A DNA stretch of 64,000 nt from NCBI RefSeq assembly GCF_041381155.1, contig NC_091143.1, positions 36,260,679 to 36,324,678 of the forward strand, written 5' to 3'. Position 1 is the first letter of the stretch, and each line of letters opens with the position of its first letter. This DNA is from Argopecten irradians (Eukaryota > Mollusca > Bivalvia > Pectinida > Pectinidae). A model generated the notes under the pieces. That model saw nothing but the letters and a program-made list of their open reading frames with translations. It was not told the origin of the DNA and searched no databases. Shown in pieces: positions 6,301-63,400 of this stretch. Both the position numbers and the translations under genes were made by a program.

Positions 6301-9300
6301 TTCAAATCAATTTTCAGCAGTCCTGCAACTGCCTTAAACACATGCGAATTTATAATAATTACTGTTTTAGGAACCAATTTTACTATATTTAGATATTCTC
6401 GATATATTAACGACATGCTCTTTCGGGAAAGTAACTTTGGGAAATTAATTTAATGTCGTTTGTGTTGTCAGAATTACTCTTTTTTCGATTTTAATACCGA
6501 TTACGATAACTTCTCTATTAGTTTTCATTTTAACAATTATTATATGATAATTCGATATTTTATTACAGTCAAGAGAGGCTGTAATTGTTACACAAAGTCA
6601 TAGTAGTCTCAAAATGCAGGAAATGATTTTGTATCCGTTATAATCTTAAAGTTTTATTTCATGTAATGTTTACCATCAAAAACCGTCATAAAACATACAA
6701 TGTGTGAATATGGATGCTTGCATATAATGGTTCAGACCCATAAAAGCACCAATATACTATTGACATAGTGGTAAATATTGTATGAAATATAACACGTTTT
6801 GAAAGAACCGCAAACACCTTGTTTCACAGTTTCGGATAATATTGAAAAATCGAGTTGCATCATTTGATCAACATCTACAATACCAGTATATATCGGAACA
6901 TCCCAATTAGTATCACGCGACTAAAATTGCAATACCAGTATATATCGGACCAGTCCGGAGATTTCCGAGTTATTTTAAAATCAATATTTAAATTTAAAAG
7001 ACTTTCTGATTACAAATTTATGAATTTATTTAAAAGTCATAGACTATTCAACTATATTAAGATGTAATATGTTGGTATCATGTTACCGTTCGGAGATGCT
7101 TCAATAGTTCCATATAATGATGACATTCTCCTCCCACTGACAACTTCCCAGGGGTGAGATTCTTGAGGATATGTGAAGTTACAGAATCCAGAATCAAATG
7201 TACAACTTTCTGGTAGCAGTGTTTTATGTATCGTTGTGCAAAAGTTGTCAGCATTGGTAATTTTCTCCAATGGTGTTCCGCTTATTTGTTGGAGGATGGC
7301 TGTTTGGAAAGATAATGTTGTTGTTGTAGGTGCAATAGTTGTCGGTTTGAATGCACGCCATAATTTTACTGAGTCAAAACCAACAGTTGCAAGCCCACTT
7401 ATTTTTGTCGTTTTGAATTGTAACTGAAACGAAAAAGTAAATACACATACAGAATTCATCATTAATATAGGATTTTAAATGAGTCTTCATTCATATTAGA
7501 TTTTACGGAAGTTTTAAAAGATTTCTTTTATCAGTCTTGGGTTTTACTACATTTTGTGTTGCATCCTTCATTTACATATAGTCTATAATATCTACAAATT
7601 ATAAGAAAAGAATTCATACCTGATATGGATCTGAGCTGTTGACGGCTAAAACGACAGTGTTCCACTTTCTATCAGACATTGAATATCCAGGTGAAGTCCA
7701 TAGTGTTGAGTTATCTGCCATAACCATAAGATTAAAATCATAAGTCTTTAGAAAGTAAATAAACTCCACACATACTAGTCCGCTTTCTATTTGTGGGGAT
7801 AGGAGGGCTGCCTCCTCGTCATAGCCCAGCTGATCAAAATTGGCCACAGCATAGGTTCCTGTAAATGTAAAAAAAGGCACAATGTTATTAGTAGTAAAAT
7901 ATGATAACAAAATATTTTCATTTAAGAAACATAGCTTTCCGAGGTAACAAAAAAAGCCGTGGGGTTAAAAGAGTTGAGTGATAGTTGGCATCAAAATTAA
8001 CCTCGAGGTCAAGGTCAGAGAGTATTGACTATTATTTTACGATTATGAATCAATCTAAAATCATCTTTATAGGGAATAAACTCAGAAGCATTTTAAAAAC
8101 CAACAACACAATACGAACCAGTAAAGACATTGTTCAATAGAAAGACGAAACAAAAAATAAATAAAAACAAGTATTGTGATATACAATGTACACATATGCA
8201 TAAAACAATTACCAGCTCTGCATCAAACAACCGATTCATCATTAAAGCCAATCTCAATCATAAGGGGGATTGTAGAAGGAGAATACTAAAAAAAGGAGCG
8301 ATTAGGTTTTACGCAGGCAATATTTCTTCACATGAATTTAAACGTGAAATTCACATGACATTCACGTGAAATTTCACGTAAAATTCATGGGAAGAAATAT
8401 TGGCTGTGTACCACGAGAAGGGGTTAAAAAAATCTGTCATTGAACAAGTAACGCGCTTATTTTCCACACAATTTCCCCAGAATTATACTGTTAAGTGCAT
8501 TAATTTCACAATGTCTGAATTTTGTGTTTCGAATATCGCGCTACATTTTTGGTACATTAATACTTTCATTGTGTATTAATTTTCGCTGGTGTTTTGAAAT
8601 CGTGGTTTGAAACAAATCACGAATATAACCTAATACTAATTCTTTACAGTATATTGACAGCAGAAAAGATAAGCTAAATAATATATATCTATATACGCTT
8701 AGACCAGGATATAAATTATGTTTTAAAAACCCATATGCTGGGTAATAGCATTTAAAACATAGAGAGCAAAATAATATTAGCAAGATTTTTTTTATTTGAA
8801 AAAATAGTACCATTGTGTGTATATCAACCGTTAATTACCATTTGGTGATGATTCGATTTTGTTGTAAGACAGAAATGTTTTGGGATATTTGCCGTCGTTT
8901 CTCAACCATACTCCTTCCGGTTGGTGACTATAGTTACAGAACTGTGTAGTATTACTAAAATCACATCCCTGGGGGAGCAAATCGGGGTTCTGTAATCCAC
9001 AGACATCATCCACGTTTGGTAATACATTGATACCCACAGCGAAAGGGCTACCTGGGAAACATTAAGGCAATATAGAGAAAATACCAAATATTTTCATGGA
9101 AGGCATAAGCCATGACACAGATATTTGAACTTTGAATCTTAAATCACTTTTATTATAAAAGATACGTGAAAATTCATTTACATTTACAATTTACAAAATC
9201 ATACAACAGTCTTTTCAATGATTATGTTTGGTAATTTATTAATTTCGTCTGCTACATGTGGTAAAAAGTCAAAGTGGTTAATCATTTTTAATTTAATGAA

Positions 9301-36400: not shown

Positions 36401-39400
36401 TGTGCGAGGTGCGTATTTTGGGAGACTGCGGTATATTCATGTTATGTCTTCTTGTATATGGCGATAAGAAAACAGCTACATGATTAATACTGTTATTACA
36501 AATACAACAACTCAATGTTGTTGGAAGTGATAACGTGAAATTAAGTTGCCATGGAAATAAGTTGATAAACCGTATAAAGACCTACCTCGCATATCATCTA
36601 TCATCTTAATTATCTTCGCCAGGGCAGCGATGAGAGCAAAGTCCTCATACTGACTTCCCTCCTTCAGCTTCCATTTTTTATGTTCCGCCTTACGCCTGTT
36701 CTTTGCTGATGATCTGCGCAAAAATTAAAGAGATACTCATCTGGTTAACAAACTCAACTCACCCTTATAATTTTAAAATGAAATGTTCCATCCATTGTTT
36801 TAGAAGATTATATGTTTGTCATTAGGGATGTATTCAGCTAGCAGTGTCATTCAAAGAGTGTCATTTCAAATCGGGTATAAAAAAATTGTTTGCAAACTTT
36901 TTAGCGGATTCTCACAAAAGTTTGCAAACAATTAAAAAAAAAAATAAAAAATAGTGACATATGCTTATAATTAATTTTATACTCTATTTGATGAAATGAA
37001 GTATGTTTAAATGTAACATATATAGTGGTTTTTCAAGGGATTCTTTTTTCCGAATCAATACGCAACGTCAATGTCTCTAATTGTTGACGCATCACTATAA
37101 CGTCGGGGTTTCGCGCGCCATTCTCGATTTTTTTTTTCCATAGTGGTATGCAAAAAAAACATTTGGCCAATCAGAAAGCCAGCTTTTTTTGTATGAAAAA
37201 CAAAGAAAAATTAATTATTTTAGATGAAATGAATCATTCTAAATAAAATAAAGAAACTATCAGTGATATTCCTAATAAAATGTTTATTCCTTCAACATTT
37301 TGAAAATAATAAAGTCATCATTTTTTTAACAATGAAATGAAAATTTACAAGTAAAGTCCAAACAAAGTTTTATATTGAATTTCTGCACTTCAGGCACAGG
37401 GGTTTACAATGAATAATTTCAATTCTATTTCATATTGATTTCAACTCTCTATTATTGTTATTTCCATTATAAATCATTACAAACCCCTGTGCTTTGGAAG
37501 AGTTGAGAGTAGTCTGTAATATTACATCTTCTTACCCTGAAGATCTACTGTATAGTGAAAAGCGTCCTGAGCGCCCAGACTCCGAGGAATATCGGGACGA
37601 CTGGATGCTCTCCCCTGTGGCACTACTAGTGTCGGAAAATAAATCTGCATCTGCCATGTTTCCGGTTCCTCCACTCTCTACAACAGCATGTCATTCACGA
37701 TGTCTTAACATACACACAGGGACTGCTAATATATTATTGGTACATGTGGTATATACATAGTACATACAGTCAAACCTGCCTGAGCAATCACCTCTGTATA
37801 AAGACCACCTGCTGAATAAAGACAACCTCTTTATAAAGACAACCTTCTGAAAAAGACTACTTTTCTAGAGTACCAAAAAAAAAATTCAACCTGTGTATAA
37901 TGTAAAGGCTACCTGACTATAAAGACATTTTTCCTTCTGTCTCTTGGATGGTCTTTATAGACAGGTTTTGCTGTGCTAAGGTTAAATATCCCAACATTAG
38001 TTATTATATAGGGTACACAGGCATATTGTCAGAATAAATGGAGCTTCTGATCAAACATTCAGGTGCAAGCTTTCGCAGGCAGTTTGACTGACACATGACA
38101 CATACCTCAACTGCCAGTCAGCTGCTTGTATAGTAGCCATGTATTATGCTCGCATGTGTACCTATATTCAATGTCGGTGCTAACATTATGGCATATACAG
38201 AAATACAAGTCTTGTGTAGTACCCGAGCAGATTGATAGACAGCAGGTGTACCATAAACATAAATACATTGAATATTTATTTTGCATGCCCTTATCTCTGC
38301 TCAGAAAATGCTTTTCTGTAAATTAAGAACCATTGATGAAACTTGAGCCTTTAATAATAAGCTCTGGATTATTCCTAGTCCTGATACCAAAAAAAGAGCC
38401 GACGCCTACCTAGAAATTCCCAGTCGGGCTTTCTCTTTGAAACTTGAGCCTCCTCTCTAACTATAGCTAGACGTTTCTTGTATTTTGTGAATTCTAGTTT
38501 GGAACTATCCAGTAGTTCCATCTGTTGACTGTAGTTTTCTGTGAGGGCACCCATCAGGTTTGTTTCAATAAAGTCTGTTCTGTTGTATTTGTACATCTGT
38601 TGGACATAAAAAAATGATTCATTGGTTAACAAAATATGTTACATTTTATATATACAGTAAAACCCCTATAACTCAAACGGCATTTGGAGGAATACAGGGT
38701 ATTTGACCCATCGAGGATGGTCATGATCGATTATCGATAGTCAAAATGTCCTGGTCTCAAAATATGACAAACAATGCATGTCAGAGACATTTTTAGCTCA
38801 CCTGGCCCGAAGGGCCGGTGAGCTTATGTCATGGCACCGCGTCCTTCGTCCATCGTCCGTCCGTCAACATTTCCTCTAAATCGCTACTAGTCATAAAGTT
38901 CTGCATGGAATGAAACCAAATTTGGCCACAAACATCCTTGAGGGAAGGGGAACAGAGTTTGTATAAATTTTGGCTCTGACCCCCAGGGGGCAGGAAGGGC
39001 GGGGCCCAATAGAAGAAATAGAGGAAAATCCTTTAAATCGTTACTAGTCATAGAGTTCTGCATAGAATGTAACCAAATTTGGCCAGAAACATCCTTGGGG
39101 GAAGGGGAACAGAACTTGTATAAATTTTGTCTCTGACCCCCAGGGGCAGGAGGGGCGGGGCCCAATAGAGGGAATAGAGGTAAATCCTTTAAATTGCTAC
39201 TTGTCATAGAGTTCTGCATAGAATGTAACCAAATTTGGCCAGAAACATCCTTGGGGGAAGGGGAACAGAACTTGTACAAATTTTGGCTCTGATCCCCCAG
39301 GGGCAGGAGGGGCGGGGCCCAATAGAGGGAATAGAGGTAAATCCTTTAAATCGCTACTTGTCATAGAGTTCTGCATGGTATGTAACCAAATTTGGCCAGA

Positions 39401-42400
39401 AGCATCCTTGTATAAATTTCGGCTCTGAAACCCTAGAGCAGAAAGAGTTGGGGCCAACAGGGAATTTAGAGGCAAATCTTTAAATTCCTTAAGAAAAGAA
39501 CAATGATCCTTTATTCAGAATATTACTTGGCATTACAAACCAGGTGAGTGATACAGGCCCTCTGGGCCTCCTGTTATTAGAGTGATTTTAAGCATTTTGA
39601 ATTTTTATGAAAGTGGTTTATAATAGCAATATCAAATTAAAATTAAAACTGCATAAAAATGAGTTTTTGAAAATTTCTCAAGGGCCAAATACCTGTTCAA
39701 TGAATACATTGTTTGATATTATGTCTTTGATAAAATGGGGATATAATTCTGTTCATGGAATAAAGGAGTATTCCACGAATAGCTGTTCGAGCTATCCAGG
39801 GTTTTGTTACATGAAATATAAAGGGACATGGTCTGGTCGTCAACTTTATAAAATGTACATAGTCCTGCAAGTGTCTGAAGTGTTACATTTGTTTGGTTCC
39901 AAAGATTTGGTACATCTAAAGTGTGGGTTCATTTGGATTGCAAGAATGTAAAATTTCAAATAAATTCCATCAATTTTATACAGATTTGAAATATTTCTTA
40001 AAATCAAACGAGAATGAAGTCAGTGAATTCTAGACTTACCAGTCTAAGAGCTTCCTCCCATAGACAACCATCTATAAGACAGACAATGGCCTCCTCTGTA
40101 TCCTGGTAACCATGGTAACAAAAAAAAAATAGAATAGTACTCAACACTGAATTTCAGAAATCCTATTGTGTCAGATAATCGAAATCGCTCACTTTGAAAA
40201 TTATTGAACAATCACATTAATTTTATGTGTGCTAAAAACTCCAATTTAGTTCACAATCTTACCTTTGCATATTGTTCCAAGACATGAGCAGCATCTTGGA
40301 ATTGTTTCTTCATCTTCAGTTGTTCTGAAAAATATTTAAATAAAAGTTACAATAAAAACATGTTTATAGCGAACACACTAACAAAAACTTCATGGTTTAA
40401 CAATAGTAAATTTCATTCCCCATCAATTTCTATGAGATGTTTGTAAAATGTATTTCTAACTACAGTAAAACCCCTCTCGAACCCGGATTCCTATTCGTCG
40501 AACTGGTCGTACGGTCCCGACCGTGTCCCTATATAATCTATGTAACAAAACCCCCTATTCCTCGAACTATTGACCTGGTCCCCTGCTGTTCGAGTTATAG
40601 GGGTTTTACTGTACATGTATATACGGGTCAAGGAAGTAATATCAATGGTTGTTTTCTAGATAACACTGGATCCTTATAAACACATGTTTGTAGGATACAA
40701 ATTACTTGAAGTTGTAAATATTGTGGCGATAGAGGATCTTTCATGAGTAGTTATGTGATATAAAATTAATCAAACAAGTTCAATAATTTGATATGCCACA
40801 AGCCTTTAGGCGAGTGGCATATTAGATTATTTAATGAGTTTAATAAATTTCATATCACATAGCCACGAGTGTAAGATTCTATTTATCACATAACTTTAAA
40901 TAAAAGAAATAAAAATAAAACTTTAGATTTCATCTCTAAATAAAATAGCAGAAATCCAGCTTGGATGTGATGTTTTCGTCTACTGAGACAATCATGCGAC
41001 ATTGTTTATTGATTATGATGTCAAAACTACCTTTGATGTCCAAATGATCTTTCATGAGTGCTTATGTGATATATAATTTATCAAACGAGTTCAATAATTT
41101 GATATGCTACGAGCCTTTATTTAATGAGTTTGATAAATTTCATATTACGTACCCAGGAGTGTAAGATTCTATTTCTTACATAACTATAAACAAGCAAATT
41201 TGTGGAATTTCCATCCCCCGCTTTCATGACATATTGTAGGTAAACATTATTGAGGTTAGGTTTTACCTTGGTTGAAATATGAAAAAATAAACTGAAGTCT
41301 TATTCGGAAGTAAGATGTTTAAAATAATGAAAGTGGCTATTAAACTTGGCTGAGCTCTTAAGGCATTTAACTTCGATACTAACTAATACTAACTTACAAG
41401 AAAATCGTTTTACATTTGTAACAATTATTGCACAGGGAATGGCAGAAAATGACATTTTTAGTACATCAAAGGGCCATACCTCCACTACATCATGTCGGCC
41501 AAAAGTGGCAATCGAACTTGGCCAAGCCCTTAAGGCATTTGACCTTGTTACCAAGTTTGAAGAAAATCGATTAATATTTATTAGAGTTATTGCAGAGAAA
41601 TGGCAGAAAATGACTTTTTTATATTAATTCAAAGGGCCATAACTGCTAAATAAGGTCCATCGCAAGTGGCGATCCAACTTGGTTGAGCCCTTAAGACATT
41701 TAACTTTGTTATCATATTTGAAGAAAATTGGTTAATATTTATTTATCTACTGAGACAATCATGTGACGTCATATTTTGATTATGACGTCAAAACTACCTG
41801 TGACGTCACAATTATAGTGTTATTACACATGTGTCTTACGATATTTTTGCCATGGCTGTATGACATAGCTGGACGGGCCAGTTATGTGATAAAAGAAGTA
41901 ATTCTAACAGTGTGGACAGAATATTGTTGAATTTTTGAGGCGATCTGCCCCTTTGTCAAGCCCCAAAACTATATGATTGTATACTTATAGCAAAGTAATT
42001 CCGCTGGTCGCCAGATGTTCATTATAACAGTGTACAAGTCTATGGTATGCTTAATCTATAGATTAATCTGTTTTTATCTGTATTATCATTTACAATCAAG
42101 TTGACAATAACGTTGTAGGTATTAAGAATAGAAACTGTACCTGCAAGTTTGCGAGCAACATCAGCCTCAGTGTCTGAGCTGTACTTGAGTCTTGCGGTCA
42201 TACAAAAGACTTGTCGCCACTGTAGACTTTCCTTGAATTCATTGAGGGCTATCTCCCACTCTTCTGCCTTGATATACATTATTCCTGCATCAACATGGCG
42301 TCCCTTCTCTGATAAATAGTCACCATATATCTTTGCAATACTCTGAAAAGAAATTCCAAAAATAAAATAATTGTTCGACTTGCACCTTTCTTATCTTCCC

Positions 42401-48400: not shown

Positions 48401-51400
48401 GCACGAGGGTGTATCGTTTCTAGGTTACCACGCGGCATCTGTAGCACAAGCTTAGTGTCGTCGTGGACAACACACACAATTCTGGACCCTCTCTCCACAC
48501 GGCGTACACACTCTCATCAAACGGATGAGCCTTTCCATCTGACAGAGTTGGCAAAACTGTAAAATAAATCAAAGTTGGATTCTAATACCATTTAAATCTT
48601 GAACCTATCTCTGAGGATGATTCCTACATTTCAGTATTGGAGAAATTGTTATTCAATAATACAGCTGAATACTTGAACTTCTATAACAGTGTTCCAGCTA
48701 GGTCGGGTTAGCAGGGTGCGGCGCCCTGCCCTTAATTCCCAGCGCCCTTTTTTATTGAGACTATAAACTTTGTTAGAGTTATAATAACTCTAACAAAGTT
48801 TATAGTCTCAATAAAAATTTTCACCATGCAGCCAAACCTATCTCAGCGATCACCTCTGTATAAAGACTACTTTTTAAATATTAAGAACACATGATATAAA
48901 GACCTATTTTTCGTTGTCCATTGAGTAATCTTTATAGACAGTTTTGTCTGTATATTCAACTACACTTTTACACTGAATATATATTATGATAATTTTTGAA
49001 ATTGTTTTTGAAATTAAATGTGACATGTGTATACTGTAGTCGACAAAAAGTCTCACACAAATACAAGCAGGGATCAATCTAGGTTTTTGGGGAAACTACC
49101 CTTTTTCAAAATAGGGGAAAAGCTTGGTGAAATATAGGGGAATTTGATTCTTCTTATTTTGGTCCAACATTATATTCATTTTGACAAAAAAGTACTGTAA
49201 AACAACTATTTTTTTTTTTTTTAGATTTAGTAAAGCAAGATATTAAGCTCAATAATGAAAATTTTGAGTTTATCATAAAATATGCAGTAGCTGTCTGATA
49301 AACATGAAGAAATTTGCAAACGAAAGTCTAAATAGATAATGAAAAATAAGTCACAGGGGAAATTGTGTTACAAAAACGGTAACTTTTTAGCTTAAAATGG
49401 GGAATTTTTTAAATCTTCTGGGGAATTTTAGGCCAGAGGGGAATTCATTCCTTAAGGGGAAATTCACCGATAAACGGTAATACATCAGAGCTAGATTGAT
49501 CTGTGACAAGTATGAATACTGAAACATTTTAGCCTAAGTTTGACCTTTGACATTTGGTGACTGACCTTGAACCTTAGTCTGCCTGCTGATACAGCGACAT
49601 GTGTGAGTTAGCGTTGTCAGAAGGAGATATTCACTGTGGACAGCTAGGGAGGTGCAGTTTGATGCTACCTGTAGATTCACATAATAATTGGATTAATTCA
49701 TGTACCATGTGATACCTGATATCGTGCGAAACTATTGTTTCTATTGGTGATGGAATGACATTAAACAAGAGGCCCAGAGGGCCTGTATCGCTCACCTGGT
49801 TTGAAATGCCAAGTAATGTTCTGAATACAGGTTCGTTGTTTTTTTTCTGAAGGAATTTGAATATTTACCTCTAATTCCCCTTTTAGACCCCATCCCTCCT
49901 GCTCCCTGGAAGTTAGAGCCAAAATTTACACAAATTCTGTTCCCCTTCCCCCAAGAATGTTTGTGGCCAAATTTGGTTACAATCCATGCAGAAGTCTTGG
50001 ACAAGTAGCGATTTATAGGATTAACCTATAATTCCCATATTGGGCCCCGCCTCTCCAGCCCTCCTGGGGGTCAGAGACAAAATTTATACAAATTCTGTTC
50101 CCCTTCCTCCAATGATGTTTGTGGCCAAATTTAGTTACATTCCATGCAGAACTCTAGGACAAGTAGCGATATATAGGATTTACCTCAAATTCCACTATTG
50201 GGTCCCACCCCTCCTGCCCCCGGGGGGTCAGAACCAAAATTTATACAAGTTCTGTTCCCCTGCACCCATGGATGTGACGGATGGACGGACGGAAGGACGA
50301 CGGTCCGACGCCGCACCATGACATAAGCTCACCGGCCCTTCAGGCCAGGTGAGCTAATAATGTTACCTCACTCTAACGTCAGCTTTTTCATTCCGCTGTG
50401 ATCAATGGAATGTCGTTATGCGTCAAAATTGATAATGTCATCGACAATGCACGCCGTAGTTACGCGGCATGTATTGATGACATCACATTATTACATGAAA
50501 TATTATGACAGAAAGACCAGCAAAAAATATCCCAGAAATATCTTGACACATATCATAGAATACTCTTTGTTAGCCCACTGTAAGAATGTTCTTTTCTCAG
50601 TTTTTTCTAATGGGAAATATTTCATCACACATGTATAGGGGAACATGACAACCATATAAAATATAGCTATAAAAATCTTTTATCTTTAAAGGCTCACTAT
50701 CATTCCGAAACGGATTTTCATTTTTAAAATTGGAATGTAAAACAAGAATGATAATTTTGTAGAGACGGAAAAATTATTAGCTTATCATTAATATTTCACC
50801 TTCTGAACAATTCAATTTAATAATTAATTTAAATGTTAATTTTTATAACGCTGGTCGTATTATGTTTTCCGCCATCATCGTAATCACCAAGCATTAGTTG
50901 ACTATCACTGCCAGACGGCCAAACAGCGAAATGAATTTTCAATGTAAACATAGTTTCGCAGGAAATCTTGCATTTGTTTGGCATTGTAATCTCATCTTAG
51001 GCCATCAATATATATTTTCTCTATGTTACTAATGTTTTTAAGATTTTATTTTTTTGTTTTAGAAAGGTAGTGGGCCTTTAAAGTATAAGTTAGTAATTTT
51101 ATTTTATTATAAAATAAAAGTTACAAAGAAATTAGAAATCAAGGCAAAGGGGCTTTACAACACAGAAAATTAAAGAATCAGTCTCATTTCATTGTTTCTG
51201 CCCATATAATGATATATGCCTACCCACTTCTACACCCTAACCAGGAATACTTACCTCTGTATCGTTAACATACAGTCTGTACCTGTCTGTAAGTCCTATA
51301 ACAACTTCCTGTAAATCAAAGATCAGACAGCATATTTATCTATTGTTTAAAAAAGCCTATACCTGTCTGTAAGAACAACTTCCTGTAAATCATAAAAAGA

Positions 51401-54400
51401 TCATAAAAAATATTTATCTATTGTTCCATACAATTGGAAATAACATACAGCCTGTACCTGTCTGTAAGAACAACTTCCTGTAAATGAAAGAGCAGGAAGC
51501 ATATTTATCTATTGTTCCATACAATTGGAAATAACATACAGCCTGTACCTGTCTGTAAGAACAACTTCCTGTAAATCAAAGATCATAAAACATGTTTATC
51601 TATTGTTCCATACAATTGGAAATAACATACAGCCTGTACCTATCTGTAAGAACAACTTCCTGTAAATCAAAGATCATAAAACATATTTATCTATTGTTCC
51701 ATACAATTGGAAATAACATACAGCCTGTACCTGTCTGTAAGAACAACTTCCTGTAAATCAAAGATCATAAAACATATTTATCTATTGTTCCATACAATTG
51801 GAAATAACATTCAGCCTGTACCTGTCTGTAAGAACAACTTCCTGTAAATGAAAGAGCAGGAAGCATATTTATATTGTTCCTCTTTAAGATCAACTTCCTG
51901 TAAATCAAAGAGCAGGAAGCATATTTATCTATTGTTCCACACAATTAGAGATTCAAGCAATTTCTGCGCCAGATATTTCATACAAAAATTAACCCTTTGC
52001 CTTTCTGTATATTGATGATAGCGATATGTTTCGTGGTTGCATGAAATCTTAACTGTGCTAATGTATTGAAGATTGTGCTTGTGCTAAAATTAGATTGTGT
52101 AAAATAATTACATTCAAAATAATAATTACATTTACAATCATAATTACATTTACGATAATCATTATACTTACTGTGCAGAAATGAAGCCAGTCACATCAAA
52201 CTCTATGTGACAGTTGAAAAATGCAATCTTAGAGTGGTGACTTGATGAGCATGTATTCGTGAATATTTTGATTTGGTTTGATTAGTTTTAATGTCCTCTT
52301 AACAGTCAGGGTCATTTAAGAATGTACCAGGTTTAGATATAGGAAAGACAGAGTACCCGGAGAAAAACCAGAGTACCCGGAGAAAAACCATTGACCAGCA
52401 ATGTGGGCAACTGCCCCACATGGGATTCCAACTCACTTCCCAGAGGTGGGGGGCTTGTGGTAATATGTCGGAACATCTCAACCACTCGGCTGCTGCAGCT
52501 CAGATAAAGAATGGATGTTTCCTTTCATACAATTTTCCACCACATTATACCCATTTAGAATTTAAGACAATTGCTACTACAGAGATTATCATAAGGTGTT
52601 TACCTCCCCTCCAATATCACAGATACACATATAGGGACAGGGCATAGGAAAAGACAACTCTGCTCCTGACTTCGTCTCCCATGGCAACACAAGGTCACAA
52701 CCTGTAAACAATAACATTCATCATTTAAAATGTAATTTATGAGTTATAATCATATTTCTCTCAATGACTTTGCTTAAATTTGTCAAGTTATTCAAATTTC
52801 GAAGTATCAGTATGTAAACTTTATCATTTGGTAATTTAAAAATTTTGCCTGAAGCATACAGTGTATTAGAAAAGTTAACTTATATTTGCATTTAAATCAT
52901 TTTCAGTAACTGTACATCTGCTGAAAAGGTTTTAGAAATAGAAATTGAGCCTAAGATAATTAATAAGATGCTGTTTTGCAGGATACCTGAATCAAACTTG
53001 AGAAGTGAACCATTACACAGCTGTATGGCTACGGATCCAGTCTCAGCGTTCACAGCCATCTTGTATACAAAGCTCTCTATATCAATACTGGTCCTGTAAA
53101 TTAAACCATTGATTTTTTTCAAAACAAATTATTGTTTACAATGCATCTAGTCTCCTCTCTGGTCAAGTGTAAACTAGGAATGTCTGGAAGTCTTGAAGAA
53201 ATCCTCCCCCCCTATTCCCTCGACCCACCTTATTCTCCATCTATATACCATTGGACAGGGCACAACGGGACATATACAGCCATTGGAAATAAGATATTTA
53301 AAGAGCATAACAAATCTTAAATAAACAAATTCAATATCATGGAAAATCTCAACAAAGGACGAAAACAACTTTTAATTCTAAGGTAAGCCTGGTATGTTTT
53401 TTCAGAGAGCCAGATGGCTGAAATGAGAAAATTGGCTGAAAAATACAATAAAGCCAGTTATATTTATTTTCATAAATTTTTGGGAAATTGTAATTCTCAC
53501 AAACTTTGATTGCCAACATACAGTGTATTGAGAAACAGTTGATACATACCAAACCTAGGATGACTTACACTCTATAGCTGATCTGGAGTGGTCCTGATAG
53601 CCTACCAAACCTAGGACGACTTACAAATAGTTGATACTGGAATGGTCCTTAGCCTACCAAATAAGACGACATAAAAAATGAAACCCGCTAAAATTTGATT
53701 TCCTCCTTTTGACCCATGGAAATGACCAGTGCTACACAGTATTTCTCTAGCTAAGATCGACTTGAAGGATTTTTTGTCATACCTTTGACAGATCAGATAA
53801 ACAGGTGTGGAGAAACTTACTTGAGAGTCAGATGGGGTTTGTCACTGTCGAGATTGAGCTCAGCACAATGAAGCACAGAGTTCTGGGCATGACTCATATC
53901 TTGGGTACAGAACATCAAAAGGTCGGAGGTCATCCACACACAGTGCTGAATGGCTATAGGTACTTTCTGTCTTTCCAATGGTAAGCCTTCAATTCTTGTA
54001 AATGAATGAAATGGGGAAAATAAATCACCATCTTTTGTATGGAGTTCAAGGAAACCATTTGACATTTTTTATACTGTCAGTAAACCATGTTATTTTCACG
54101 TATACCATATTTTGTATCTTATTATTTTTTGACATATTCACGTTATATGCCGTAATGCATAAATTGAAATTGCGAATACACATACCTGTATTTGCAATCA
54201 AATGCTATTACTGGCATAGAAATTTATTTATGAAACATCTGAATTTGCATTCAAGTTCTTTCATTAAAATATTTGTAAATCTATATTTCACAAAAATAAT
54301 TTGTGGTTTACAGTAGGTAAAATGATAACATATAATGTGTATGAGAATAAAAGGACACAAAACGAATGAATAGCTGTAGCCAAAGTTTTGATATTTTGAT

Positions 54401-57400
54401 AAAATTAGAATTTAATGTAATATAGTAATATCTAAACTTAAAACTTGACTTTTGACAATAAAGCAGACAATATTGAAAGTTTGATTGTGATTTTATTTTA
54501 CACACTGAATCTAAAAATATACTTTCAGCATTAGTTTCATAAATGCAACTGGAATTTCTTTCATTTATCTTTCTTTTTTTTAAATAAATTAATATTTGCT
54601 ACTAAATATAACAAAGGCCTAACTAGGTTTTCTGTGGCTTAAATAAATTTTCTACCTAAGGTAATGGACGTCTATATATATGTACGTGTAGATTCAAGGC
54701 CTTGATCATGCATGAACATTGCTGTTTTGGGGACTTGATCACACCCATGCACATGTATTGCTTCTGTTACGTAACAGAAGTGGTTAAATTCACAAATCAA
54801 ATGCTTACATTTACGGCTAATTCATTGGAAAAATTATTGGCAAAACATATGCTTTTCCTACAGCTTTTCTGCCTTACATCACTTATACCAGGTACAAATT
54901 AGTACTCAAACAGAACTGAATTATACAGATCTCAACTCTGATAGTTTGAAATCACATTTTTATCCTGAAGCTTAATTTCGGATAATTTAGACTGATCCAT
55001 CAATATTTATTTAATTTTGTTTGAACAGAAGGTTTTAATTATACACATCCACACACACAACACGTATACTACACAGGGGAGCTAGGCCATCCTTATATTA
55101 GACCCAAAAAGCACCTAGGGCACTATGAAATTGAAATAAAATGAAGGGGCACTTAATATGAATCAATATAAAAAAAGAAATCAGATAGAGAAATCTACAA
55201 ACTGTTTTCAAAATCTCACTTTGTATTTGATTCAGCGTAAGTGAAATGGAGGCCACAAAAATGAAGAGGGATGCTTATAAGGACGAAGGCACTTATTGGG
55301 TCAAATACAGTATGTCTTCTTTCATATGAGACTTGAGGGTATACAGTATAACTTGTCTAAACCGGATGTGAATGGGACCATTCGATTTGTTCGGTTAATA
55401 CAGGTGTCCGGTTTATAGAGGATAGAACCTTATCACAATATGTTCACATGGAAATCATCAGAAGATTTTTTTTTATTACAGCACAAACATTTATTCTCAT
55501 ATATGTACATGGTAGAACACAGAATTCCATCCTACGTTTTCTTGGTTTCTGAGGTGTACATGTACGATCCATTTCTCTCGGTGTGCTACATTCAAATGAA
55601 CTCTCAGAAGTTATGTGTATGTTTTATTGTTAGAATTGACCGTGAAAAGTATTCACAAATACAATGTAACAAAACCGTCGAATGAAAAGTTGTCACTATC
55701 TAGCCCTTAGTATACTGGTACAGGTAAATCCCCTTCGGCGCCTCATGATCAGTCCCATGTTGTGAAAACATTGTTGCCGGTTTTCCCAAGTTGATTTTAC
55801 AAAGAAAGGTATAGTAACATTACCTAGACAGTTCTGGTTTTCAGAATATGCAGGTTCCGGATTATGCAGGTTTTGGGTACTATAGTTTATTAAGAAATTT
55901 GCCGGGACCAAACAAATTAATCGGTATAGACAAGTTTCCGGTTTATACAGGGTTCGGTTTAGACAAGTTATACTGTAGTTACAACTTAAAATTGAGACCA
56001 ATTATTAGACCAAGGGAACCCTGAAGTATATTTGTTACCCTTACCTGTAGATTCCTTTTAAATGAGGTGTTTGACAGCACAAGGTAAATCCTTCACCTAA
56101 TGAGGCATCAAACTTGACTGTGCTGTCCCTTGGTAAGTTCTTGTCCTCAGATTCTGGAGCTAGTAAGTATTAAGTATATAAAACAATTAGTTTGCCTTTG
56201 TGATGTCAACGCAATAAAATAATTCTAAACAACTGAATTCTTTCTTGAAAAAATAGGACAAAACAAATCAAACATTGCTCTGCCAAGTGGACAGGGAAAT
56301 CACAACCATCAAGAAAGATTTTGGTCGGCAGGACAAAACAAATCAAACATTGCTCTGCCAAGTGGACAGGGATATCCGCAACATCAAAAAAGATTTTGGT
56401 CGGTAGGACAAAACAAATCAAACATTGCTCTGCCAAGTGGACAGGGATATCCGCAACATCAAGAAAGATTTTGGTCGCCAGGACAAAACGAATCAAACAT
56501 TGCTCTGCCAAGTGGACAGGGATATCCGCAACATCAAAAAAGATTTTGGTCGCCAGGACAAAACAAATCAAACATTGCTCTGCCAAGTGGACAGGGATAT
56601 CCGCAACATCAAGAAAGATTTTGGTCGCCAGGACAAAACAAATCAAACATTGCTCTGCCAAGTAGACAGGGATATCCGCAACATCAAGAAAGATTTTGGT
56701 CGCCAGGACAAAACGAATCAAACATTGCTCTGCCAAGTGGACAGGGATATCCGCAACATCAAAAAAGATTTTGGTCGCCAGGACAAAACGAATCAAACAT
56801 TGCTCTGCCAAGTGGACAGGGATATCGCAACCATCAAGAAAGATTTTGGTCGGCAGGACAAAACAAATCAAACATTGCTCTGCCAAGTGGACAGGGATAT
56901 CGCAACCATCAAGAAAGATTTTGGTCGGTAGGACAAAACAAATCAAACATTGCTCTGCCAAGTGGACAGGGATATCGCAACCATCAAGAAAGATTTTGGT
57001 CGGCAGGACAAAACAAATCAAACATTGCTCTGCCAAGTGGACAGGGATATCGCAACCATCAAGAAAGATTTTGGTCGGCAGGAAAAACAAATCATACATT
57101 GCTCTGCCAAGTGGACAGGGATATCCCAACCATCAAGAAAGATTTTGGTTGGCAACCTTCTGCTTTCTATTATTTCATCACAGAGGCATATAAAAGGAAC
57201 GGTCACACTCATTTCTTGCACAATTTGATTTTAAGGATATTCATACAAACTACACTAACTAAATGTGTACACAGCCACTCGGCCATCCACCAATACCACG
57301 GCCAAGTCATTGGGGTTGCCTTGAATGCAGAAGGTTACATAGTTGACAGGGCACGGAAGTTGTAGATAGTAGGCCGACATCGGAGGGGGAGTCACCATAT

Positions 57401-60400
57401 CTCTCATAGGAGTCATCAAAACTCGGTCTGTAAAATAACAGATCAGCACATAGATCAATTTACACAAATATTATCCTATTCACCCCTATAGAAACATTAA
57501 GATTGCTCTAGTTCAAAGGCTGGACTAGTCCATTTTGAAATTTTAGGGCTGAATAAGTCAATATTAATACATGTGATTTTAAACACATTGAAATAATACT
57601 ATGAAAGTACTAACACTTTTTATTCAAAATCTTCTACAAAAAATGTATCTATGGATCATATATTAAAGATTTTGGAAACAAGCTAAAAAATCTATCCTGC
57701 ATATGGTTTGGAATACAAGTTCTTATTGGAATATTTGAACTGTACAAAACTTACACATGTGAGAACTCATTATTATTAAATAATGATGAAAGTATGACAT
57801 TACAGTGAACTCACTTAATTTGGAATCAGATATATTAAAACACTGCCTAATTTAAAATGGAACCCTGCAATCATTGTTTTTCCTTGGTTAGATTAAAATC
57901 TGGATAATTTAAAGAGATTTTCCATTCTCTGCAGCAGAGGAAAAGGTGGATTGTAAAACCTGAATAGTGAAGAGTTGCACTGTTACCTCCATCAATGACA
58001 GCTACTAAAGCTTGGTTGTCCTTGGATACGCCTGTACTAAAGTGGGTGGCCCAGGACCATGTATACTGTAGATATCTCCCTCCAGAACACATTATATGGA
58101 GACGATATGCATGTTCAGGGTCCCAAACAACTGATACAATGCTATCTTCTGCTGTGCCGTCAAAGTGGAGGCTTTGTTTCAGATACCAGTGGTAGTTGTT
58201 CATAGTCCAAAGTTGGACTGAAAGAGAATATACAGACATTACTTAAAGATGCTCCACCGCCGACAGAGCATAAATGATTTTCATCATTTGAACAATAATT
58301 GGTGTTTTATCGTGTATATATATGCCTAATTAACACAAAAAATAACACAAAATAATTTATGTCGCCTTTGGTGCGTGCGCAATCATTATTTCATTCTATA
58401 TAAGATACAGTGCCAAGGAATTTTTTCGGGATGCAATTAATTATTTTTTCTATTTTTAACTTGAAGTAAAATTAGAAGCTCAAACTTTTCAATGGTGGTA
58501 ATGGTGTAAAGTAAGTAATTTTTGTAACTGAAGAAAAATATTAAATCGTCTGTTCCTGTTTTTGATAGTGAAAAAATACCATTTGTCAGCGGTGGAGCAT
58601 CTTTAAATACATTAAAGTTATAAATTGGTTTACAATAAGAGTAAAATATTCTTTATGATATTCCTGATCCATTTATTTCATCTACTACAAACAACTTTAT
58701 ATGTGCATATATGTACTATACTTTCGATGTTAAAATACTATCTCAGGCTAATAATTCTAATCAAGTTTGACTCATTTCCCACGAAATACAATCACATAAT
58801 GCTGAAAAATTAGTTTTTCCTATGTAATTTGACCCCCTCTCTAAGGGAAAATCTAATACCCCAGGGCCATGAAATTCACAATTTTGTTTTTGTTAAAGGC
58901 ATTATGAGCCTTCTATCTATGAAGAGTATTTTGTTCTGCCACATCTACAAGTTGAGAAGAAGATATTTGAAATTTTAGCCAATTTGTCCTTTTTTGGCCC
59001 CTCCAACAGCCCTCCGGGAACTGAGGGCCATATAATCAATTGACCATATAAGGTTTGTGCAAAATTTCATTGAATTTGATTCAGCAGTTTTGGAGAAGAA
59101 GTCGAGAATGTAAATTGTCTACAGACACACGATGCACGACGATGAACAAAGAGCGATTAAAATAGGTCAATTGAGAGAATTCATCTCAGTTGATCTAAAA
59201 ATGGTTTAACTAGCTATTGACCAAGGAAAACCTACAAATGAAATATGAGAAATAGTTTCAGAAGAATAGTAGTAACAAAATTTGTTTATGGACGGACAGA
59301 TGGATAACAGACTCAGGACAAAAGGCAATTTGATTAGGCCACCATCTGACGATAGGCCAGAAGCAGTTGTATGATACTGACGCGATTGATTAACCATGAA
59401 GGGTATAACGAGTGTACCATATGTCCGAGGTGTGGTGTGACCCTCTGAATCTTTAACCAGGTCCTTCAGTCTCACCATCAGTACAGACGAGTCCAGATTC
59501 CAGCACATCTCTGTCACCTGTCACAAAATTACAAGTAAAAAAATCAAGATTCCAGCACATCTCTGTCACCTGTCACAAAATTACCACAAAATTAACAAGT
59601 AAAAAAATCAAGATTCCAGCACATCTCTGTCACCTGTCACAAAATTACATGTAAAAAAAATCAAGATTCCAGCACATCTCTGTCACCGGTCACAAAATAA
59701 CACGTTAAAAAAAATCAAAAATTAGTAATGACTGTAAGGCGTAAATACCCTGGCCTCCATACAACATGGGAATATGATGACACAGATATTGGGAAACACA
59801 CTATATATATAACCTCCTCTTCATAGTAGGGAAAAAGCAAAATATATTTATCTCGACAAAGTTAACTTGTATGGTCTGTGACGGTACTGTGGCTGTATTT
59901 TTCGCATAGAAAAAGTCTTTAAGTGTTCTACATATTTTTCTCCACCTCTCTAAGTTTTTTGTTGAGACTTTTGTGAAGTTCGTTTTCGTAAAGTTATTAA
60001 ACAATTAAGTTTAAATATTGATTTTTGACATGTACATGTATAAAATAGCTCGGAAGTCTCTGAACTGTTCCGATCTATTCCGATCTGTAAGGGAATTGCC
60101 GATGTTGGCCAAGTGTGACGACTCGCTAGGTCATGTGATGCAACTCTGCTTTTTAATATTATCCGAAAGTTTGAAACATGGCGGTGACTGTGACGGTTCT
60201 TTCAAAACGAGTAATAGTTCATGTGACATTTACCATCATGTCAATAGTATATTGGTTCTTTTATGGATCTGAACCATCATATATAAGTATCCATACTCAC
60301 ATGTTGTTTGTTTTATGACAGTTTGTGATGGTGAAAATTACAAGAAATACAACTTTAAAGAAGAAAATATAACAAGTTTTATTTGATATTGATCCCAACA

Positions 60401-63400
60401 AAGATACTGTATTATATTTTAGTCCAATGGAAATATCTGTGTGTCTTGATGAAGTGGATTGCCTGGAATGTGACAATCTTTTTAGTACACACAGTTAGAG
60501 ATACTTCTTTGTCTCATCTTTGTGACTGAACTCTTTCACCCCTGTAGACACATTAAGACTCTTCTAAATCAAAGACTAGACCAGTCCATTATGAAATTTA
60601 AGGGGTAAAGGAGTTAACTCAGTTACATCATATAACATTTTGATGCTTAATACAGTCCCTTTTCTTTCACTTTACAAATTAGTTTTTGTCATAAGTCCCT
60701 CCTATATCTGGGTTGTATACCTGTACATCGTTAACTCCAAAAGGAAGAGTGAATTCTCCGTGTCTCAGTCCATTCTTCTCAAAAAAGATCACTTCGTGTT
60801 TGTTAGGCCTTCTCATAGTGCTGGCAATCAGATTTCCAGACGGTCTGAAATATGACCATCAGAATAAAATCACAGACGCAATGTTAAGGGTTACCTTCAT
60901 AAATAAAACACTGAAGAACTAAGAAATCTAAAATTGTCACTATTAAGACACTCTCTATAAATCCTCAGAAAATCTTCTTTATTCAACAGCTAGAATTGCA
61001 ATAATACATCAGCATCAAACCATTATCATCTGCTCTTCTATAACTTTGGTTTTAATTAAAAATCGCAATAATAGCCAGGATCATCTAAGGACATGTGCAA
61101 TTGTTAAGCAAGAGAAGGAAATTTGGAGTACCCAGAGAAAAACCATACCAAGAGGTGGAGGGCTAGCGGTAAAATGTCTCTTCATCTTTACCAATCGGCT
61201 ACTGTTAATATATTTTCAAATGTGTCTTTCATCTAGCTTATAATTCCAATTTACAAATCCATATTTTTTCTGCAAAAATTTATATTATGAGGGGTTTGGG
61301 TTTGTTTAGTTTAACGTCCTATTAACAGCCAGAGTCATGTAAGGACGTGCCAGGTTTGTTGGTGGAGGAAAGCCAGAGTACCCGGAGAAAAACCACCGGT
61401 CAGCGGTCAGTACCTGGCAACTGCCCCACATGGGATTCGAACCCGCATCCCAGAGGTTATGAGGCACATTTGATTAAAGAAACAAAATTAACAAACCACT
61501 TCTGTAATATCTACTACAACCAAAATCTACAATTATTAGCTAGTAATTATATTTCATAATCAATATGCATCTATTACCTCCATGCTAGAGCTTGTTCCAC
61601 TCCGTCCACATTTTCACTGGTCGACTGGTGCTCACATTCTCTGTTCCAGACTCTTAGTTTCCGGGCACCTGGTAAACATATATTAAATTCAACGACTTAT
61701 TGTTGTTGATATCCAAAAGACAATTGCAAGAAGTCACAATGCATGGCAATATTCCCTGTACTCGCTGTAGTTATTTGGTGCTGATGTCCATGTTTCCATG
61801 GAAATAGAAAAAAAAACAATGAAAATAAAAGATCACAAATGTAGTAAAAGGCACAATTGGATCACTTGCTTAAAATATACAGAAAATTTTGTGGAGTTGA
61901 GTTGAACAACCCTATATAACTTTACCTGTATCTGGACTTATGGTGCTGACCACAAAAAGCTGACCATCGCCTCGCCAACTGACCCTTGGTAACCGGTCAT
62001 CCCATGGTAACGCTGGCTTTACCTCCTGTTAACATATTACATTGAAATATTTCTGAACTACATAGTATGTTTCTTTGTACCTGTATCCTTCTTTTGTTAT
62101 TCAGACAGCCTTGGTGCCAGAAAGAAGATATAACTGACACCCTTATGGATTAGTCTAAGATAGGAAATGACATAAGATTAGCTGCAAATATTTAGCTCAA
62201 AAGACTTTTTGACAGAAAATGGTGTCGTATTTAGAGCTACAATTGGTGCCTATTACTGCTAATGGAGCAAAGTAATGAATATGCAAACCATTATAAAACG
62301 TTCGTTTTTATTTTTATTGTACTTGTTTGATATCACTTACCTTCTAGGCAATAAAACTGAACCACATAAAATATCAAATTCTCATTGAGGCATTATTTTT
62401 TTTTTACATAATACATATGAAGGTCTTTCTGAAGGGAATTTATACGGCAAGTCCACAAATTGTGAGTTTGACGTCTTGTGAGCGGTACGGTAGATATTAA
62501 GAATGGTAGTTATGTTTGTTTTGGACAATCATATGTAAATGCATGTATACGCATGAAATAATTGGAAACCTACAAAAAAGTAAAGAAAACAATGCCCGCG
62601 TTTTCGGAGGCAGTACTCCACTACGACACATAGGGACCAATTCGTAACTGGCCAAAAGGTACATGTATAGTAGGCCGGGTACGTATATTCGTTCTAACAT
62701 CAGATATGCATCACAGAAATTGATAATGGGAATAATTCACGTACCACGTGATACTGATAACATTTGTGCAGGACTGGTGTTTCTATTGGTGATAGAATGA
62801 CGTTTAAAGGTGATGTCCCACGCTAACGTTATTTCAGCGGGAAGATTACAAAGAGTTACGTTCCATCACCACTGGAGATACAAGTCCTGCACAAACGTTA
62901 TCGGGTATCGTGTGGTAGGTGAATTAGTCCCATTCAAAGTAAAAAAAAAATCCATTTTAGGTCACAAAGCGCTTATGCGTAACAGAATATATGGTAAAAT
63001 TCGTTATTTTTATGACTATACCTGTAGTATGTAATTAATTTTTTCTTGACCAATCATAATGTCTATTTGGTCAGATATCGTAGTTTTTAGATCTGTCTGA
63101 ATTTCTGTATAGAAAAGCTTTATATCTTTAAGACATAAATGCTTTCGTCTACATAAGAAATCAAAATGGGACATGGGACTCTATATGATAGAACGGTGTG
63201 AAGCAAGACTGGACTGGAGGAAACGTAAGGAAATGGTGACACTACATACCTTCTCTTTTTAATGGGGAGAGCATAAAAAAGTAATGTTACACAGCACACA
63301 CTTCAAAATCTATACACTGTATAGCTGATGATGAAAATCAATTTTGGGTCAACATCAATTATTGTCCCATACTTCACAGGGACATCCCGCGGTTGCTAGG

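Follow-up and report, generated by a model that had tools for sequence, protein, structure and literature searches.

Tandem copies of a 3' splice junction in an ELP1 intron of Argopecten irradians, and similar arrays at other exon boundaries of the genome

The ELP1 locus

The DNA analysed here, referred to as the window, is a stretch of 64,000 nucleotides (nt) from the scallop Argopecten irradians (assembly GCF_041381155.1, contig NC_091143.1, positions 36,260,679 to 36,324,678 of the forward strand), and coordinates given without further label refer to it. The minus strand of the window carries ELP1, the gene for Elongator complex protein 1, in which an intron of about 1.3 kb contains, just ahead of the 54-nt exon 51308-51255, seven head-to-tail copies of the 3' splice site and start of that exon. 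An array of this kind had been described in an earlier note on the same DNA; it is real, and its acceptors lie within 3 nt of the positions given there.

Spliced alignment, guided by a human ELP1 sequence, places the 54-nt exon between exon 52701-52604 and an exon starting at 49668, all joined in phase 0. The product of the 54-nt exon can be aligned with PDB entry 8ptx, Elongator complex protein 1 (IGLTDR against LGLTDR), and the Pfam family for the second propeller of ELP1 matches the exon that follows (E-value 4e-7). The alignment and the in-phase placement between neighbouring exons bear out the earlier assignment of the copied exon to ELP1. The gene model lists 51 exons, spurious tiny ones included, of which 23 were taken by length and homology for the examination of exon edges described below. 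Its acceptors are uncertain for the exons starting at 62012, 48512 and 44956, as are its donors for those starting at 59517, 57427, 49668 and 38596. Between 48000 and 64000, Rfam gave no match at the gathering threshold. The exons on either side of the intron are:

52604..52701, minus strand: preceding ELP1 exon (spliced alignment)
51255..51308, minus strand: real ELP1 exon and source of the array, 54 nt, phase 0/0 (spliced alignment and PDB sequence alignment)

Structure of the array and its origin from the exon

Tandem Repeats Finder (TRF) reports the array at 51354-51880, with a period of 91, 5.8 copies and 93% matches, and it is also detected as direct repeats. The first exonic bases behind the decoy acceptors lie at 51897, 51841, 51750, 51659, 51568, 51477 and 51382, so spaced that the distances from the outermost acceptor inward to the real site are 56, 91, 91, 91, 91, 95 and 74 nt. 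The array is about 0.65 kb long, and no N occurs anywhere in the window. Its parts are:

51898..51946, minus strand: intronic lead-in of unit 7, AATTGTGTGGAACAATAG..TTTGATTTACAG (alignment; left limit approximate)
51842..51897, minus strand: unit 7, the outermost, with a decoy acceptor before 51897 and about 16 nt of exonic copy left
51751..51841, minus strand: unit 6, decoy acceptor before 51841, 91 nt
51660..51750, minus strand: unit 5, decoy acceptor before 51750, 91 nt
51569..51659, minus strand: unit 4, decoy acceptor before 51659, 91 nt
51478..51568, minus strand: unit 3, decoy acceptor before 51568, 91 nt
51383..51477, minus strand: unit 2, decoy acceptor before 51477, 95 nt with a 4-nt insertion
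51309..51382, minus strand: unit 1 (nearest), decoy acceptor before 51382, truncated exonic copy followed by the real exon's own 3' intron end

A full unit consists of 37 exonic nt and 54 other nt that lead to the acceptor, and lacks the end of the exon. Its exonic part reads GAAGTTGTT and then CTTACAG..., with six bases lost in between, while the tract ahead of the decoy acceptor is TTTGATTTACAG in four of the seven units, TTTCATTTACAG in two and TTATGATTTACAG in one. The earlier description of the unit thus stands as regards the acceptor, the exonic bases, the six-base loss and the lack of the exon's own donor; its length is 91 rather than 92 base pairs (bp), and the full units do contain a GT within their exonic part, mostly as CAG/GTACAG (the slash marks the splice point).

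When a 70-nt segment spanning the real acceptor (40 nt of intron and 30 of exon) was compared with the window, seven further matches fell in the array with E-values of 1e-14 to 4e-20. The similarity between units and exon therefore extends far beyond the CAG, to which the alignment proposed earlier might have seen it reduced. In the 846-Mb genome the unit has at least eight matches, all of them at the ELP1 locus and including the real exon. The six missing bases, ATAGGA, are absent from all seven units and encode two residues in the real exon; both positions are filled in the solved ELP1 structure (PDB 8ptx), the glycine being identical. Since six bases filled in the solved protein are gone from every unit, the copies come from exon 51308-51255, by way of a single founder that had lost these bases.

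Units 2-6 differ pairwise at 1-7 of 91 positions (mean 4.0%, the 4-nt insertion of unit 2 set aside). Units 3-5 are nearly identical, with 0-1 differences over 43 intronic and 0-1 over 31 exonic positions, and units 7 and 1, at the two ends, are truncated. The array thus has homogenised inner copies and edge copies left out of the process. Among the inner units the tract has two versions, one in units 2 and 6 and the other in units 3-5, which makes the homogenisation partial.

Splice-site scores and predicted outcomes

Splice sites were scored with vertebrate-like weight matrices. On this scale the real acceptor reaches 10.1; for the decoys, taken from the outermost to the nearest, the values are 10.1, 11.5, 10.1, 10.1, 10.1, 11.5 and 7.8. 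By predicted strength, six of the seven thus equal or exceed the real site, as expected of the decoys proposed in the earlier note, and the nearest one is weaker. The median of 20 ELP1 acceptors is 6.4, and the 29.5-kb gene strand holds 51 AG sites scoring at least 7.8, seven in the array and eight at accepted exons. The loss of the six bases lifts an acceptor inside the unit from poor (1.9) to fair (6.7). An internal AG/GT at position +20 is present in six of the seven units, with a donor score of 5.3-5.9 in five and 3.4 in the sixth; the corresponding GT of the real exon scores 5.9 and lies within the conserved reading frame.

Use of any of the seven decoys to extend the exon is predicted to run into an in-frame stop, and use of a unit as a 20-nt micro-exon to shift the frame into a stop. 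Since every extension would meet a stop, a role of the decoy extensions in the protein is unlikely, and the earlier suggestion of alternative 5' exon extensions finds no support in the predicted products. There is no sign of a conservation bias in units 2-6, where 2 of 37 exon-derived columns and 7 of 54 other columns vary (Fisher p 0.30).

A second array in ELP1

The 23 acceptor and 23 donor edges of ELP1 were each compared with the window at E-values up to 0.01. Arrays were found at 2 of the 23 acceptor edges and at none of the 23 donor edges; as several exon ends are uncertain, these counts are approximate, those for donors more so. The second case is:

59418..59517, minus strand: second ELP1 exon with a junction array (spliced alignment and edge comparison; 3' end uncertain)
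59518..59721, minus strand: second array, repeated 3' splice site with about 23-24 exonic nt (TRF and edge comparison)

In this array the first exonic bases of the copies lie at 59569, 59633 and 59686, and at 59686 the acceptor AG is changed to CG. The remaining matches were weak, with an E-value of 0.003: the donor edge of the 54-nt exon has a 19-nt echo of the first array, and two other acceptor edges each have a single short match.

Junction arrays in other genes

Twenty 10-kb pieces of the genome (L010-L029, 200,000 bp) were read by hand. From the top 70 of a codon-usage ranking (824 training codons), 21 candidate exons were chosen by eye, together with arrays that had strong splice scores. 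The survey, small and hand-picked, in which acceptor-side cases may be missed, yielded three arrays that span an exon's donor, all in other genes:

L016 4735-7220, minus strand: donor array, 40-bp units directly after the exon, about 60 of them resembling 5' splice sites
L027 2246-2431, plus strand: donor array, last 27 exon nt and donor three times with period 53, the third copy with two changes
L019 168-241, minus strand: putative exon end, 37-bp perfect tandem duplicate including 27 exonic nt and the donor

The L016 exon, which ends in ...GACTCAAAG and is followed by GTAAGT, matches the DTW domain with an E-value of 1.9e-5, below the curated cut-off of Pfam. With the real site included, its array holds 61 donor-like sites scoring at least 5, of which 44 score at least 11, and 58 of 60 spacings are exactly 40. 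Only about 9 exonic nt are copied, and these are identical to the unit consensus. The units were compared with 18 of 62 left out after a register shift, and the GT is kept in 43 of the 44 in register. Pooled over all cells, variation is higher in the donor columns (43 of 396 cells) than in the other columns (78 of 1,364; p 0.0007); 29 of these 43 changes lie in one two-state column, and a test by column gives p 0.87. There is thus no sign of constraint on the splice part of the 44 in-register units by the per-column test.

In L027, the 53-nt exon is joined in phase to an upstream exon for WD repeats (...TVKIWDMRQPSSAQHTLEPYKNQ). The best 60 of 641 matches of this gene in the PDB are to WD-repeat proteins in general, and we take it to resemble THOC6. 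The L019 exon belongs to a coiled-coil open reading frame (ORF) with no significant family match, and it is regarded as an exon on the grounds of its reading frame and splice signals; comparison by blast of the 21 candidate exons with their own loci missed its duplicate, which TRF detected. Acceptor and donor boundaries are therefore both affected in this genome, the former at two ELP1 exons and the latter in L016, L027 and L019, the exon evidence being weaker for L019.

By eye, two more arrays with high GT scores, one in L021 and one in L023, looked like repeats with no evident exon and were set aside; no search aimed at them was made. As a separate observation, a 51-bp array in L031 (5189-5497, plus strand) begins at the donor of an exon in a WD gene and has, by eye, no exonic bases in its copies; a closely similar unit recurs at L031 6633-7000.

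Array density and chance capture

Tandem arrays are frequent in the sample, where 39 arrays with a period of 35-250 cover 40,567 bp, or one fifth of the sequence. Thirteen of them have a period of 155-161 and are probably members of one dispersed family rather than 13 separate births. Arrays of this period recur across many of the sampled pieces and are also seen in the window (38872-39410 and 49888-50275).

At this density, 0.36-0.81 captured edges are predicted among the 46 ELP1 edges, and the probability of two or more is 0.05-0.19. With one fifth of the sample made of tandem arrays, chance capture of junctions by active minisatellite formation is enough to explain the arrays, although the fit is not fully comfortable. 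Strong splice sites are not clearly enriched in the units of 56 arrays, which hold 6 donors against 4.3 expected and 12 acceptors against 8.4 expected. Three donor-side arrays in 200 kb would extrapolate to about 12,700 in the genome (95% Poisson interval 2,600-37,000), a rough figure from a hand-read sample.

Origin and persistence of the arrays

We consider it likely that the ELP1 array arose as a minisatellite when the sequence across a 3' splice junction was duplicated in tandem, and that it has been tolerated since. A segment comprising about the last 54 intron nt and the first exonic bases (37 copied nt) would have been duplicated, with six bases lost in the founder, and the array would then have expanded and been partly homogenised through slippage or unequal exchange. 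Because a duplication upstream of the innermost acceptor leaves the copy beside the full exon intact, such an array could persist: the complete exon, with its strong donor, still has an acceptor directly in front of it, and normal mRNA may continue to be produced. The additional acceptors are probably skipped for the most part, mis-splicing presumably being rare, and any transcripts that used them would carry early stops and presumably decay. The absence of detectable constraint on the splice part in ELP1 and in L016, together with the great number of arrays, favours a mutational account. Of the possibilities raised in the earlier note, a minisatellite that captured a splice junction is thus the one that has gained, given the dense minisatellites of the sample, the like captures at other exons and the lack of conservation bias in five units. 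Titration of splice factors, also raised there, gains no support from the present evidence.

Several points weigh against this account. The scores offer no reason for the decoys to be skipped (7.8-11.5 against 10.1 for the real site), and that splicing tolerates the array is something we infer. The chance estimate also tightens when the arrays of period 155-161 are left out, to 0.24-0.54 edges expected of 46 and a probability of 0.02-0.10 for two or more. For the acceptor edges alone (2 of 23) the probability is 0.014-0.063, or 0.007-0.030 without that family. As the probable family inflates the number of births and the probabilities fall once it is removed, splice junctions may be favoured to some extent.

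Other explanations give the copies a function or deny their existence. The decoys might act as regulated poison acceptors, diverting some of the ELP1 transcripts to non-productive mRNA and so tuning the level of ELP1, as would befit acceptors of which six of seven score as high as the real site or above and whose extensions and 20-nt pseudo-micro-exons all end in stops or a shifted frame. We regard this as unlikely, as the exon-derived part is no more conserved than the rest in five units, and the like arrays at unrelated exons and donors point to a mutational habit rather than to regulation specific to one gene. Alternatively, the units could supply material for a new intron or exon: a cryptic donor in one would pair with the acceptor of the next and yield a 20-nt micro-exon, as in intron gain by tandem duplication. 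The AG/GT at +20 would provide the donor, a donor of like type (GCAG/GTACAG) closes another exon of the ELP1 model, and potato RdRp used a duplicated acceptor with a cryptic exonic GT (PMC4974935). But a single 20-nt piece shifts the frame into a stop, and the matching GT of the real exon sits in its conserved reading frame, and this explanation seems very unlikely.

Copy numbers of tandem arrays are generally error-prone in assemblies, and the repeats might have been collapsed or invented. Such an artefact is highly improbable here, as units 2-6 differ from one another by 1-7 of 91 bases, the array is short, the window is free of N, and other loci of the same assembly show such structures. 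Serial recursive splicing, in which the AG/GT sites of the units would be used as successive ratchet points and not be visible in the mRNA, has in its favour that sites with fair scores as both acceptor and donor occur in both ELP1 arrays, which hold 6 of the 12 on the 29.5-kb gene strand, and that a Markov control gave a mean of 3.25 and a maximum of 6 in 20 runs. Against it, half of the 12 sites belong to the arrays in question, 51 such sites lie on the opposite strand, random genome sequence has 5.8 per 29.5 kb, and the intron is only about 1.3 kb long. The AG/GT sites do not stand convincingly above background, and we find recursive splicing barely conceivable. Separately, the strongest AG/GT site, at 38801 on the minus strand, lies in an apparent palindromic repeat tail (AGCTCACCGGCCC..GGGCCAGGTGAGCT), and a similar tail is duplicated in L023 at 7888-8037.

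Beyond birth and tolerance of single arrays, it is a tentative and rather doubtful proposition that thousands of exon edges carry arrays of their own junction, with minisatellite birth favoured or especially tolerated there. It draws on the three donor-side arrays of the sample, the two acceptor-side arrays of ELP1 and the tight chance estimate without the 155-161 arrays; against it, the estimate with all arrays fits chance, and the array units show no clear enrichment of strong splice sites. If it were true, the arrays, with up to about 60 consecutive units resembling 5' splice sites behind one exon, would form a natural large-scale test of how the spliceosome chooses among equal sites, and new introns and exons could continually arise from them. 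Each array pits many near-identical sites in cis against one correct choice, and transcript reads would reveal whether the first, the last or the best is taken.

Comparison with known systems

The closest counterparts are the 'mirages' of amphioxus (PMC3087553, PMC3902484), which the arrays described here match in each feature compared. Splicing of the amphioxus genes that carry them is reported to be normal. The array of amphioxus BflGb6 repeats the 3' end of an intron and the 5' part of exon 2 in units of 150-160 bp, that of BflGb9 lies on the donor side, the unit of Adh3 is 10-72 bp, and similar repeats occur in PGBD5. Common to amphioxus and ELP1 are head-to-tail units with a splice site and part of an exon, homogenised inner copies with edge copies that are not, and cryptic AG or GT in many units; as in amphioxus, acceptor and donor boundaries are both affected in the present genome. 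The differences are that another animal is concerned, that the unit is 91 bp, that two arrays occur in one gene with a donor-like array of about 60 units elsewhere in the genome, and that the arrays described here are known from genome sequence alone. The ELP1 array is thus ordinary in kind, and its interest lies in the recurrence of such arrays within the genome.

The array also shares acceptor and exonic sequence in tandem with the cases of intron gain by tandem duplication in ATP2A1 and potato RdRp, and in the latter the duplication became a new intron with a cryptic GT serving as donor (PMC4974935). Here there are many copies rather than one, with no sign of a new intron or exon. Minisatellites, as internal tandem repeats, likewise occur at exon-intron boundaries of human segmentally duplicated genes, where they are reported as variation between paralogues, with support from transcripts (PMC2812944), whereas the ELP1 case concerns a single place seen in genomic DNA. 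A narrow search of the open-licence literature returned no mollusc or bivalve report of tandem repeats or minisatellites with splice sites, and mirages at intron-exon boundaries only in amphioxus. Were the arrays as common as the sample suggests, they would be material for the birth of introns and exons at a scale of which the literature searched gave no report.

Further repeats in the window

Another intron of ELP1 contains an array of twelve 75-bp units (56255-57154, 96% matches) that is mostly open in one minus-strand frame and at which no exon edge was seen. On the same strand, a long minisatellite rich in threonine and proline, possibly coding, occupies 842-2338, and the ORFs near it presumably resemble MAM domains.

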